A stretch of DNA of 43,103 nt from a virus. The DNA lies in IMG/VR virus record IMGVR_UViG_3300032284_001121, positions 1-43,103 of that record. One strand, 5' to 3'. Under the pieces are notes generated by a model that was given only the letters and a program-made list of their open reading frames with translations, had not been told where the DNA came from and did no database searches. Below are positions 1,551 through 43,103 of this stretch, piece by piece. The translations under genes and the position numbers were made by a program. The stretch's first letter is position 1. Each line of letters opens with the position of its first letter.

Positions 1551-1742
1551 ATGGCTACCAAACCTAAATCAAAGTATCTGAACATCCGGGTCACTCCCGC
1601 TGTTCACAAGGTGTTCCACCGAAAGGCCGAGGAGTACGGAGGCGTCTCTGAGGTCTTGCGAGAACTAGTAAGTGCGTTCATTGAAGAACGAGTCAAAGTA
1701 ACCCCCAACCCTGAAAGAAAGACAATTTATCATGTCAATTGA
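1551..1742 (+). CDS. Small ribbon-helix-helix (Arc/CopG-like) DNA-binding protein
   Basis: A 63-aa basic protein. The pattern KYLNIRVTPAVHKVFHRKAEE followed by a short loop (YGG) and VSEVLRELVSAFIEERV has the beta-strand/helix/helix layout of Arc/MetJ/CopG regulators, with alternating residues in the strand (L-I-V, residues 10-14). Such proteins bind DNA as dimers and often repress their own operon; the dyad at 1497-1524 is a candidate site. GAGG at 1539-1542 is a good ribosome site 8 nt before the ATG. It is the first gene of the rightward replication operon and overlaps the next gene by 11 nt. The fold assignment is by pattern only. Confidence 0.7.
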   Translation: MATKPKSKYLNIRVTPAVHKVFHRKAEEYGGVSEVLRELVSAFIEERVKVTPNPERKTIYHVN

Positions 1743-37078: not shown

Positions 37079-37248
37079 GCAGTAAGGGAATTGGGGGGTA
37101 GGGGGTTCTGTGATCACGGTCTAAATTTTTCAAAAAAATGCGCGGATGCCATATGAATATTTTTGGATAGGAAAAATTTTCCCCCCGGCCCCGGGAAAAC
37201 CGGCCCCGGCGCGGCCAGGTCCCCGGTCAATCAGTCACACCGGCCACC

Positions 37249-37268
37249 GGGATCCCCTGGCCACACCG
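37249..37268. repeat. 20-bp dispersed repeat, copy 1
   Basis: GGGATCCCCTGGCCACACCG occurs here and again, identical, at 38581-38600, 1.3 kb away. The second copy includes the right part of a perfect 20-bp palindrome; the first sits inside the CCGG-rich island. Confidence 0.85.
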
Positions 37269-37327
37269 GACCCCGGCCAGGTCCCCAGGCTTTGGGATCA
37301 ATGTGGCACGGATCAACCCGGGCCCGT

Positions 37328-37345
37328 GTGGCCAGGTATCCCGGC
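37328..37345. repeat. 18-bp word shared with a coding sequence (copy 1)
   Basis: GTGGCCAGGTATCCCGGC is identical to 39771-39788, which lies within a coding sequence. The word therefore recurs independent of coding status, indicating a DNA-level element. Confidence 0.8.
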
Positions 37346-37480
37346 GCCGGTGTGACACGGTGCAGGCATGGGCCTGGGATCCGGTGTGGCCATGGATACC
37401 GGCGCCGGCATTGTATGGATACGGCATGGCCAGGCCATGGGGATCCGGCTGCAGGGAATCACACGTATCCCGGACCCCGG

Positions 37481-37512
37481 TCGACTTAACATAATATCGA
37501 CTTAACATAATA
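37481..37512. repeat. Perfect 16-bp tandem repeat, two copies
   Basis: TCGACTTAACATAATA is present twice without spacing (37481-37496 and 37497-37512). It is AT-rich and lies at the edge of the very GC-rich island, so it is a candidate DNA-unwinding element or binding site in an origin or operator region. Confidence 0.85.
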
Positions 37513-37574
37513 TGTTGCAGGCCTTGATCACGTAACCCGGTTGACTTGGCCACATTGCAGGCAATCAACCCGAA

Positions 37575-37720
37575 GTGACACAATGGCCACTACTGTGACA
37601 AATGGTTCTAAGGTGACAGAGCTCTACATAGGCGTTTTGACATCTTATTATTATTAGTGCATAATCACTTCTGTAATTTTCATTTACTTAGTCCCCAGTC
37701 ACCTAGGCCATTTGTCACAG
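37575..37720. promoter_or_regulatory. Operator cluster with 13-bp perfect inverted repeat
   Basis: CTGTGACAAATGG (37593-37605) and its exact reverse complement CCATTTGTCACAG (37708-37720) flank the rightward early promoter. Related copies are GTGACACAATGG (37575-37586), GTGACAGA (37613-37620) and, reversed, GTCACCT (37698-37704, matching AGGTGAC at 37611-37617). Three half-sites upstream and two downstream of a promoter, in opposite orientation, suggest repression by looping. The right arm extends to just before the HNH start. The protein that binds is unknown. Confidence 0.65.
37637..37665 (+). promoter_or_regulatory. Strong rightward early promoter
   Basis: TTGACA (37637-37642, six of six) and CATAAT (37660-37665, five of six) with a 17-nt spacer. 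The predicted start is near 37672, giving a leader of about 58 nt ahead of the HNH gene at 37730 and about 16 downstream genes. Nearly consensus, so likely used early by unmodified host polymerase, and controlled by the flanking repeats. Confidence 0.82.
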
Positions 37721-37729
37721 GATCACACC

Positions 37730-38293
37730 ATGAAATCACTCGATAGCGCCACTGCAGCCCGTGCAGCTCAATTTTTCCACTACGATCAAAGCGCCGGAAA
37801 ATTTTATTTAACGGCCAGGGATAACACCGGTCAACAATTCATCACAGGAACCGAAGCCGGGTTAGTCACCCCTGTGGGTGTTCGGCTTACATTTGAACGT
37901 CAATACATCGCAGCGCATCACTTGGCCTGGTTCCTGGTGCACGGTGCATGGCCGACTCATAAAGTCAGTCACTTGAATGGCGACAAAACCGATAACCGGC
38001 CGGCTAACCTGGCCAGCCCGTTAAGCCTGCAGGACCATGCTCAGGCCAGGACTACAGTCAAAGCCCGTAGCGCTGCAGTGGCCGTGAATTTTCTCGAGTC
38101 CATAGGGGTGACACAGGAACAATTGCAGGACCATGCTCTGCAGGTTATCCGCGATAACCAGGGTGAAGCCCGGTACATCGATGCACTGTTAGTGTATGGC
38201 CGTATAGATAAGGACACTCACCGGACCATGCTCGAGAATGTCAAAGCGAACAAGCGGAAACAGGTAACCCAGCGGGTTAGGGTAAACACCTAG
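37730..38293 (+). CDS. HNH endonuclease
   Basis: 187 aa from ATG 37730 (AGGA about 9 nt upstream); an in-frame TTG at 37712 is a poorer alternative. The motif AHHLAWFLVHGAWPTHKVSH then LNGDKTDNRPANL (about 62-97) is that of HNH_3-type homing-like endonucleases. The C-terminal half is helical without a clear AP2 or NUMOD domain. As the first gene of the early operon it may be a free-standing homing endonuclease, or a nuclease acting on host or competitor DNA. The end of the gene contains one copy of the palindrome TAACCCAGCGGGTTA (38265-38279), so it is also part of the control region of the next gene. Confidence 0.85.
   Translation: MKSLDSATAARAAQFFHYDQSAGKFYLTARDNTGQQFITGTEAGLVTPVGVRLTFERQYIAAHHLAWFLVHGAWPTHKVSHLNGDKTDNRPANLASPLSLQDHAQARTTVKARSAAVAVNFLESIGVTQEQLQDHALQVIRDNQGEARYIDALLVYGRIDKDTHRTMLENVKANKRKQVTQRVRVNT
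38265..38279. promoter_or_regulatory. Palindromic operator candidate, copy 1 (inside the HNH gene)
   Basis: TAACCC-AGC-GGGTTA is a 6-bp inverted repeat with a 3-nt centre, identical over all 15 bases to the copy at 38313-38327. Centres are 48 bp apart (about 4.5 helical turns). Its place inside the coding 3' end of the HNH gene is compatible with an auxiliary operator. Confidence 0.6.
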
Positions 38294-38303
38294 AAAATAA
38301 TTG

Positions 38304-38331
38304 TTGACGTGATAACCCAGCGGGTTACAAT
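38304..38331 (+). promoter_or_regulatory. Promoter with embedded palindromic operator
   Basis: TTGACG (38304-38309) and TACAAT (38326-38331), 16-nt spacer, each five of six to consensus. The palindrome TAACCCAGCGGGTTA (38313-38327) fills the spacer and touches the -10, a classic place for a repressor that blocks polymerase. It would drive the 38378 gene and those after it. Confidence 0.68.
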
Positions 38332-38377: not shown

Positions 38378-38566
38378 ATGACTAAATCCGAAATTCGCGA
38401 AGTGCAAAAAATTAAACAGTATCACGCTGCAGGCCTGGGCATTGACTTTGTCGCACGTGCTCTCTCATCCCTGATTCGCTCTGCCCGTAATAACCGAAGC
38501 AAGATCGAATTGTCCCGGATCGCTGCAGATCTCGAGTGCCAGCGTCACCCTGAATTCATTTGCTAA
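38378..38566 (+). CDS. Small hypothetical protein
   Basis: 62 aa from ATG 38378, set by AAGAGG 7 nt upstream; an upstream in-frame GTG at 38309 would start inside the promoter. The sequence is helical (SEIREVQKIKQYHAAGLGID, FVARALSSLIRSARNNRSKI) and ends in a His/Cys pair (CQRHPEFIC). It is the first gene after the operator-controlled promoter. No family recognised; similar helical small proteins often act on host proteins. Confidence 0.72.
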   Translation: MTKSEIREVQKIKQYHAAGLGIDFVARALSSLIRSARNNRSKIELSRIAADLECQRHPEFIC

Positions 38567-40502: not shown

Positions 40503-40651
40503 GCCCGTACGCGCCTACGCGCCCCATGCTGCCCCGTATGCCTGCCCGGTTCGCCCGGTGGCTCACGCCTGGGGAGAATCCCTTCACGGCCGACGCTGAG
40601 CACCTGCACACGTTCGCCCAGCTTGTTCGACTCGCTGAGGTTGACCTATGA
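40499..40651 (+). CDS. Small hypothetical protein
   Basis: 50 aa from ATG 40499, with GAGGG about 7 nt upstream and ATGA overlaps at both ends. A basic Pro-rich start (SPYAPTRPMLPRMPARFARW) is followed by a helix with LTPGENPFTADAEHLHTFAQ. The overlaps and ribosome site argue for a real gene even though it is short. Confidence 0.6.
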   Translation: MSPYAPTRPMLPRMPARFARWLTPGENPFTADAEHLHTFAQLVRLAEVDL

Positions 40652-40983
40652 GCAAGCTGCCAGACTGGATGACCCCCACGCCTACGCGCGCCCCACGCGC
40701 GAGACCCCGGCCCACGCGGGTAACACCTGCGCCCACGCCTACGCGCGAGCTAGACCTGCCCAACATCTTTCAACTGCGTGTGATGACGATACGCAAGCGA
40801 CTGGACCTCAGCGCCGCCGCCATGGCCAGATACCTGGGCGTGCCGGTGTACACCTACAGGAAGTGGGAAGACGGTACGCGCGACCCCAGCGCGTCGGTGG
40901 TACGCCTGCTGGAGGTGCTGCGCCTGATCGACGACCACGCGCCCAAGCTACACAATCAACTGATTCAAGAGGCTAAAAAATGA
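40648..40983 (+). CDS. XRE-family (Cro/CI-type) HTH regulator
   Basis: 111 aa. The N-terminal 35 residues are a Pro/Thr/Arg-rich run (TPTPTRAPRARPRPTRVTPA) encoded by successive ACGCGC-type words and are probably disordered. The rest is a helix-turn-helix (about 45-95): LRVMTIRKRLDLSAAAMARY, LGVPVYTYRKWEDGTRDPSA, VVRLLEVLRLI, matching the XRE pattern with the recognition helix at PVYTYRKWEDG. It is the best candidate in the window for a protein binding TAACCCAGCGGGTTA or the GTGACAAATGG sites. Starts with an ATGA overlap. Confidence 0.8.
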   Translation: MSKLPDWMTPTPTRAPRARPRPTRVTPAPTPTRELDLPNIFQLRVMTIRKRLDLSAAAMARYLGVPVYTYRKWEDGTRDPSASVVRLLEVLRLIDDHAPKLHNQLIQEAKK

Positions 40984-41983: not shown

Positions 41984-42009
41984 AAAAGGGACCCTGTGGT
42001 CCCTTTTTT
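41982..42009. terminator. Bidirectional terminator
   Basis: GGGACC (41988-41993), loop CTGT, GGTCCC (41998-42003), flanked by A6 on the left and T6 on the right, so it works both ways. It separates the early rightward operon from the convergent prim-pol/DUF3987 gene, whose stop overlaps it. Confidence 0.9.
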
Positions 42010-43103
42010 CATTCTGCCCCGGGTACGCGCTTACGCGCGTGAGGGGCGGCCTTGTAAATCTCGTCCAGTTGCCGCTGCTTGGCCTCCAGCACTGCCTTGC
42101 GATGACCCTTGAACAACTCCATCAACTGAGGATTGATCCCCCACTGCGCGATGTGCTGGTGCTCTTTCGTCCCGTCGTCCATACGCGCGACCCAGGTGCT
42201 TTGCTCCAGCAGCGTCATGGCATTGATGACCATCTGATCGGCCTGCCACGGGCTCACGTGCTCCACCTGACGCCTGGCTGAGCGCTTGATCTCGGACATG
42301 GTCAGCGTGGCCTTGTCGGCGTGCTGGATCACGTAGTCCGCGACCCACGCGTCAAACGAGTTAACGCCGCCCACCTCGCCCAGCGAATACCTGAACGCGG
42401 GGATCACGTACTCTTTGACAATACGGATCACGCGCTCCACAACATCGGGCTGCACCAGCAGATCAAACGGCCGCTCCATGAGGTGCATCACCAGGATCAG
42501 GCGCCCGGTCGTGCCCTCGAGCTTACCAAACGCGGTCATGAACGCCTCGGGGCTGCTCAGGGTGCGCTCATCTCGCTTGGCTGCCTCGTACCAGCGTTGG
42601 AACTCGCGAAACACAGCATGAGCCTCGGTCGAGAGTTTGTAGGTCTGCGCTGGCAGTGCGTACACCAGGCGCAGCATCTGCTCCCACTGTGCCTTGTTGG
42701 TCATGAACTCGGGGATCGGCTCACCCAGGCGCGTTTTGTCGCCGCGCAGGATCGCAGGGATGAACCGCTGGAGCAGGCCATCGGCCGTGAGCGAGCTTAG
42801 GTTGTCTTTGTACACCCGGGGCTGGATGTTGCCGTAGATGCTGATGGCCAGGTTCTCGCAGTGGATCGAGCCACTGCCCACCCGGTCCATGTCATAGGTC
42901 TCTGACTCGTAGGACACCACCCAGGTTGATCGGTCCTCGCCGCTGGTCTTGTCGGTGAGCTTCTTGACCCAGGAGTTCATCTCATCGAGGTAACACAGCA
43001 GGCCCCGTGGCCGCTCGGAAGCATGGCGCACGAGCTTCTGTGATGTGATGTCCGAGACCGTGATCTTCAGGGGCGCAGGCTTCTCGGGCAGATCGTGCAC
43101 CAC
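42009..43103 (-). CDS. Prim-pol/DUF3987 primase-helicase, C-terminal part; 5' end at 1383..1
   Basis: The rest of the primase-helicase that enters from the left end of the window across the join (364 aa here, residues 455-818 of about 818). It contains the DUF3987 Walker B-like motif LLCYLDEMNSW (D494, E495 of the whole protein), followed by SIHCENLAISIYGNIQPRV, RFIPAILRGDKT (a possible arginine region) and a C-terminal winged-helix-like region (about 725-775: NSFDAWVADYVIQHADKATL). The last residues are basic (HARKRVPGAE). The apparent GTG start at the window edge is an artefact of the cut. Confidence 0.88.
   Translation of the reverse strand: MVHDLPEKPAPLKITVSDITSQKLVRHASERPRGLLCYLDEMNSWVKKLTDKTSGEDRSTWVVSYESETYDMDRVGSGSIHCENLAISIYGNIQPRVYKDNLSSLTADGLLQRFIPAILRGDKTRLGEPIPEFMTNKAQWEQMLRLVYALPAQTYKLSTEAHAVFREFQRWYEAAKRDERTLSSPEAFMTAFGKLEGTTGRLILVMHLMERPFDLLVQPDVVERVIRIVKEYVIPAFRYSLGEVGGVNSFDAWVADYVIQHADKATLTMSEIKRSARRQVEHVSPWQADQMVINAMTLLEQSTWVARMDDGTKEHQHIAQWGINPQLMELFKGHRKAVLEAKQRQLDEIYKAAPHARKRVPGAE
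43083..43103. repeat. 21-bp terminal redundancy (copy 2)
   Basis: Identical to bases 1-21; the sequence is circular and one copy should be removed. Confidence 0.9.

Follow-up and report, generated by a model that had tools for sequence, protein, structure and literature searches.

What is the function of a perfect inverted repeat placed between the structural and packaging genes of a phage and its early genes? The window in which it was found, 43,103 nucleotides comprising positions 1 to 43,103 of IMG/VR record IMGVR_UViG_3300032284_001121, is a circular phage genome that had been cut inside a gene, with a 21-bp end overlap joining the two halves of this reverse-strand gene. The joined halves, 1-1383 for the N-terminal part and 42009-43103 for the C-terminal part, make up an 819-codon gene for a DUF3987 replicase (primase-helicase), whose C-terminal domain was modelled as a winged helix and is our candidate for the protein that binds the repeat. 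No cultured phage was close to the window by DNA similarity.

The control region and its inverted repeat

Structural and packaging genes extend leftward from the 613-bp control region (37118-37730) and early genes rightward. The first gene on the right, on the forward strand, encodes an HNH endonuclease (PF13392, 37730-38293) and lies between the repeat and a conserved early promoter, past which the first small conserved early gene is found (38378-38566, forward strand). The HNH gene is absent from the control region of the near relatives L004 and L007, and its product, used as bait, recovered one locus only, which was unrelated. An Rfam search returned nothing credible.

The first-pass annotation had reported a perfect 13-bp inverted repeat bracketing a consensus-like promoter, with further GTGACA half-sites, and these elements were all recovered. 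The left arm CTGTGACAAATGG (37593-37605, forward strand) and its exact reverse complement (37708-37720, reverse strand) are separated by 102 bp, and no third copy exists in the whole genome. Only two perfect inverted repeats of at least 13 bp with a gap of up to 200 bp occur in the window, both inside the control region, where the Markov-1 expectation is 0.004 (0.2 for the whole window); the repeat is real and above chance. GTGACA is found at 37575-37580 (upstream of the left arm), 37595 and 37613 on the forward strand and at 37713 on the reverse strand, that is, three forward sites on the left and one reverse site on the right, or four in a stretch of some 145 bp where about 0.1 would be expected, whereas the window as a whole shows no enrichment (25 seen vs. 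31.6 expected). The dyad is further extended by an inner pair that the first-pass annotation did not include, AGGTGAC (37611-37617, forward) and GTCACCT (37700-37706, reverse). Between the arms, the core (37606-37707) is 64% AT and a candidate unwinding element. It also contains the promoter-like sequence TTGACA-17-CATAAT (37637-37665, forward strand), which scores 11/12 and may serve the HNH gene, whose likely Shine-Dalgarno sequence is overlapped by the right arm, the arm ending 9 bp before the ATG at 37730.

Other features were observed in the surroundings. The second perfect 13-bp inverted repeat, TGGCCACACCGGA (37258-37270 and 37380-37392, gap 109), lies in the GC-rich part of the control region, and a perfect tandem 16-bp repeat, TCGACTTAACATAATA, occupies 37481-37512. 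The 91% identity of relative L004 to the window breaks off at 37333, past which L004 differs and has other early genes, a sharp mosaic junction located within the GC-rich repeats. Locus L065 carries arrays of TGTGGCCA. Beside terS, the stretch 37103-37206 is 77% conserved in L007, shows a C-run after an A/T-rich stretch and may be a packaging site.

Conservation of the element among relatives

Loci of relatives were drawn from IMG/VR with terminase, early-gene and DUF3987 baits. Comparison with 17 relatives, whose DUF3987 replicases go down to about 60% identity, showed that paired sites of the TG[TC]GACA type are kept, mostly with an outer span of 111-127 bp. Relatives therefore retain both the arms and their spacing, the point on which the first-pass annotation had staked its own proposal. 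The near relatives L006, L007, and L008 have perfect 24-bp arms, those of L004 are 23 bp long and 78% complementary, and loci with a DUF3987 protein at 60-64% identity still present a cluster of two to seven TG[TC]GACA sites. In most loci a forward and a reverse site face each other at 103-111 bp, measured between their starts (the window has 119). The arms match only partly in L004 and several other relatives; the best arm identity ranges from 6 to 12 of 12 positions, values of at least 9 being reached at 2.6% of random positions. An exact search of viral contigs for the arm pair gave no match, because the letters outside TG[TC]GACA vary.

An alignment of 16 elements showed TGnGACA on the left, mostly TGTCACA on the right and an AT-leaning core (49-60% AT in the relatives). 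The profile built from it recovers the element from the majority of DUF3987 loci whose flank is long enough, with nhmmer E-values from 1e-31 to 3e-6 in other clade members and of 8e-14 for the whole conserved element of the window (37589-37728, forward strand), itself part of the alignment. It also picks up loci L117 and L119, where both arms are GGCGACAAAT, and no clear element was found in about six DUF3987 loci with enough flank. Several short, non-palindromic, conserved sites beside an AT-rich stretch, as in iteron-type origins, are thus present.

The early promoter and its candidate operators

In the first-pass annotation, the repeat was taken for a looping operator of an early switch: a phage regulator, be it the XRE protein, the RHH protein or another, would bind both arms and repress or switch the promoter between them. 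The genuine, conserved pair of inverted sites in that proposal stood, as did the extra half-sites around an 11/12 promoter, and the XRE and RHH genes do co-occur with the element. However, the bracketed promoter did not: a sigma-70-like site of at least 9/12 was found in the core of none of the 15 relatives tested, being present only in this window, and the conserved early promoter is instead TTGACG-16-TACAAT at 38304-38331 (forward strand), with palindromes of its own.

In relatives, the early promoter lies shortly past the right arm. In the best-matched subgroup (L100, L111, L112, L114, and L115), the promoter is TTGTTGACA, with a CCC-N3-GGG palindrome on either side (52-67 bp from one to the other) and, in most members, an upstream element CCTAnAAAATA. 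The counterpart in the window, at 38265-38331, has its palindromes 48 bp apart and is separated from the repeat by the HNH gene. It consists of two operator candidates with the sequence TAACCCAGCGGGTTA (38265-38279, and 38313-38327 overlapping the -10), the conserved promoter-upstream element TAGGGTAAACACCTAGAAAATAATTGTTGAC (38278-38308, forward strand), and the promoter. Judged from these comparisons, the early-gene switch is to be placed about 550 bases past the inverted repeat, apparently displaced by the HNH gene, and its annotation is corrected here, with the ACCC-N3-GGGT palindromes at the conserved promoter as putative operators.

The upstream element TAGGGTAAACACCTAGAAAATAATTGTTGAC has a wider distribution. 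Its 19-base core was matched exactly at least 120 times in viral contigs of up to 96 kb, in at least 105 distinct contexts and often upstream of promoter-like sequence. None of 84,980 bacterial and archaeal genomes matched its 22-base form exactly, and a relaxed form gave five matches. No paper on this element was found in the open-access literature.

Each of the two proteins put forward as binders of the arms fits another site better. The XRE/MqsA-like helix-turn-helix protein (40648-40983, forward strand) matches the MqsA_antitoxin family weakly, at 28.5 of 30 bits, just below the curated cut-off. As described in PMC4894380, MqsA binds AACCT-N3-AGGTT, to which TAACCC-N3-GGGTTA is close; it is therefore likely that the XRE protein is the natural reader of the CCC-N3-GGG-type palindromes, among them the ACCC-N3-GGGT copies of the window. 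The latter motif is nearly absent from loci with a D5-type replicase and reaches up to 10 copies in DUF3987 loci. The HicB-like RHH protein (1551-1742, forward strand) is encoded divergently from DUF3987, and its promoter (1497-1527) has a conserved site of its own, with a consensus of about TGTATCAGAnnTGTGnTACA; TG[TC]GACA or its complement is absent from this promoter in 15 of 17 relatives. In locus L093, the C-terminal part of DUF3987 is 100% identical to that of the window and the RHH protein 56%, a contrast that points to recombination between the two divergent genes.

Operators of XRE proteins are usually palindromic, whereas the arms are not. Furthermore, phages with a D5-type replicase keep a similar architecture, and no relative of XRE or RHH was found in their fetched flanks. 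A looping operator is consequently a weak and unlikely reading of the element.

Facing sites and hairpin strength

Less probable still is that the structure rather than the letters is recognised, either as a stem-loop origin of the pRN1 type or as an RNA hairpin hiding the start of the HNH gene. Plasmid pRN1 needs a 100-bp stem-loop, and its ORF904 resembles the present case in joining an AEP primase, a helicase and a C-terminal winged helix and in having a dyad of about 100 bp as origin (PMC4234260). Single-strand folding is indeed strong in L007 (z about -8 to -9), in L099 and in the window, but in about half of the relatives it is no better than in shuffles (z near 0), with the TG[TC]GACA letters kept. 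Since the strength of the hairpin varies from relative to relative, the family is better described by two binding sites that face each other than by a stem-loop. The pRN1 system, which has an SF3 helicase, shows the opposite pattern: there structure is conserved and letters vary, whereas here the letters of the sites are conserved and the pairing is not. The RNA hairpin over the HNH start was rejected, the transcript from the inner promoter folding no better than shuffles.

The element accompanies the replicase

Among loci with a DUF3987 replicase that carry the element, 5 have a terminase large subunit (TerL) of the window type and 17 one of the D5 type; all 56 loci with a DUF5906 (D5-type) replicase lack the element, even though the TerL of D5 phages is 68% identical to that of most DUF3987 phages. 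As the loci had been selected through either DUF3987 or the early gene, these linkage counts do not come from random sampling. The element goes with the replicase and not with the packaging genes, as the sites of an iteron-type origin would.

This distribution argues against a cos or pac site bound by the small terminase. Such sites lie beside terS in many phages, and here terS starts about 550 bp to the left of the element. Nevertheless, the element occurs with two different terminase sets, one of which D5 phages share without having the element, and the terS-proximal stretch 37103-37206, kept in L007, is a better candidate; a packaging function was rejected as very improbable. As for recombination between the arms flipping the 102-bp segment, the perfect repeats around a promoter resemble known invertons, but neither a tyrosine nor a serine recombinase (the two families searched) was found in the genome, and in relatives the arms are imperfect and the core lacks a promoter, so that an invertible promoter was rejected as the least credible explanation.

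Iterons and replicase covariation in DUF5906 phages

The same intergenic place is occupied in D5 phages by tandem 9-bp iterons around an AT-rich core, those on one flank being direct and those on the other inverted. Their letters differ by phage and form about 10 classes, with examples such as TGTGGACAA, TGTGGGCAA, TTTGGGTCA, TGTAAGTCA, TGTTGGCTA, TGTGTGCCA, and TGTAGTCAA, plus others. These classes were assigned by eye and set from the DNA before the protein columns were examined. Covariation was then scored by setting pairs of close phages (at least 78% identity) whose motifs differ against pairs of distant phages that share a motif, close phages not being independent of each other. Out of about 790 replicase columns, the top two, R747 and K726, fall in the C-terminal region and differ in 77% of the former pairs vs. 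0-2% of the latter; D731 was also listed among the covarying columns.

In the AlphaFold model of the D5 C-terminal domain (mean pLDDT 78), the equivalents of K726 and D731 are located in the loop between the two strands of the wing. An individual case is L088: its whole replicase shows about 91% identity to those of L059 and L075, and yet this phage has another iteron and a changed wing, with TGTTGGC replacing TGTGGACAA and ASRAYG replacing KSRRYD or KSRRHD. Combined with the model, the data support a covariation of D5 iteron letters with the wing of a predicted C-terminal winged helix in the replicase. A structure search with this domain gave no match at E <0.001. The small terminase TerS was also compared as a partner of the D5 iterons, and it was dropped after the module test. 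In addition, dense short repeats such as CGACCGAC were observed beside the 9-bp iterons in the upstream regions of L011 and L017.

A probable replicase-bound origin

A P4-like origin bound by the replicase is the most likely identity of the element, in a form that we did not find described in the open-access literature; with a probability of about 0.62, it is the replication origin to which the DUF3987 primase-helicase would bind, opening the strands and initiating there. In this reading, the AT-rich core would be bracketed by at least two non-palindromic TG[TC]GACAAnTGG sites that point in opposite directions and span about 111-127 bp. The C-terminal winged-helix domain of the primase-helicase would bind these sites, and two opposed replicase complexes would then unwind the core, with priming of replication at that place. 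Just downstream of the origin, the early promoter with its operators would form a unit of its own.

The choice of DUF3987 as binder is suggested by linkage, by elimination and by analogy with D5 phages. Since DUF3987 is nearly always found together with the XRE and RHH genes, this assignment depends on elimination and the D5 analogy and not on a covariation of its own. The model of its C-terminal domain (mean pLDDT 71) shows helix-strand-helix-helix-strand-wing-strand, the same order as in the D5 domain, and gave weak matches of MarR/PadR/RTP type among known structures (best E about 0.02, none under 0.001). Kazlauskas and colleagues have proposed a possible role in origin recognition for the winged helix of primases with a fused DUF3987 or VirE domain (PMC5862659); this proposal, the winged-helix model and the D5 parallel together support an origin bound by the replicase. 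GC skew along the genome showed no clear turn and no origin signal.

Several known systems resemble this arrangement in part. The alpha protein of phage P4 is likewise a primase-helicase, and its winged helix is described as binding short repeats of the origin, followed by unwinding and priming (PMC4234260), although it has a bacterial Toprim primase in place of a DUF3987 replicase with an opposed pair of sites around a core. The PrimPol-PV1 and PrimQH proteins with DUF3987 or VirE share the domain kind for which origin recognition was predicted, but no origin sequence is given in the sections of that source cited here (PMC5862659), whereas the present data offer candidate sites and, in the DUF5906 sister group, covariation. 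SaPI Rep and SCCmec Cch2 are replicative helicases that also bind short repeats, SaPI Rep through its C-terminal domain (PMC7581432); in both, the origin directly follows the helicase gene, in contrast to an element about 4.3 kb away beside the early operon. Finally, the DNA-binding domain of the PLE initiator RepA_N and its origin covary and swap (PMC8263062), with another initiator domain and in a satellite setting.

More generally, DUF5906 and DUF3987 primase-helicases might choose their origin via the C-terminal winged helix, so that a few changes in the wing re-target 9-bp iterons and related phages carry mutually private origins, of which the repeat in the window would be the DUF3987 form; we advance this extension tentatively, at slightly less than even odds. 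In conclusion, origin recognition by the DUF3987 and DUF5906 replicases of uncultured phages has so far only been guessed. If the proposed reading is right, the elements would provide candidate origins for a large group of these phages, and the natural pairs of wing and iteron would be a basis for working out the recognition code.
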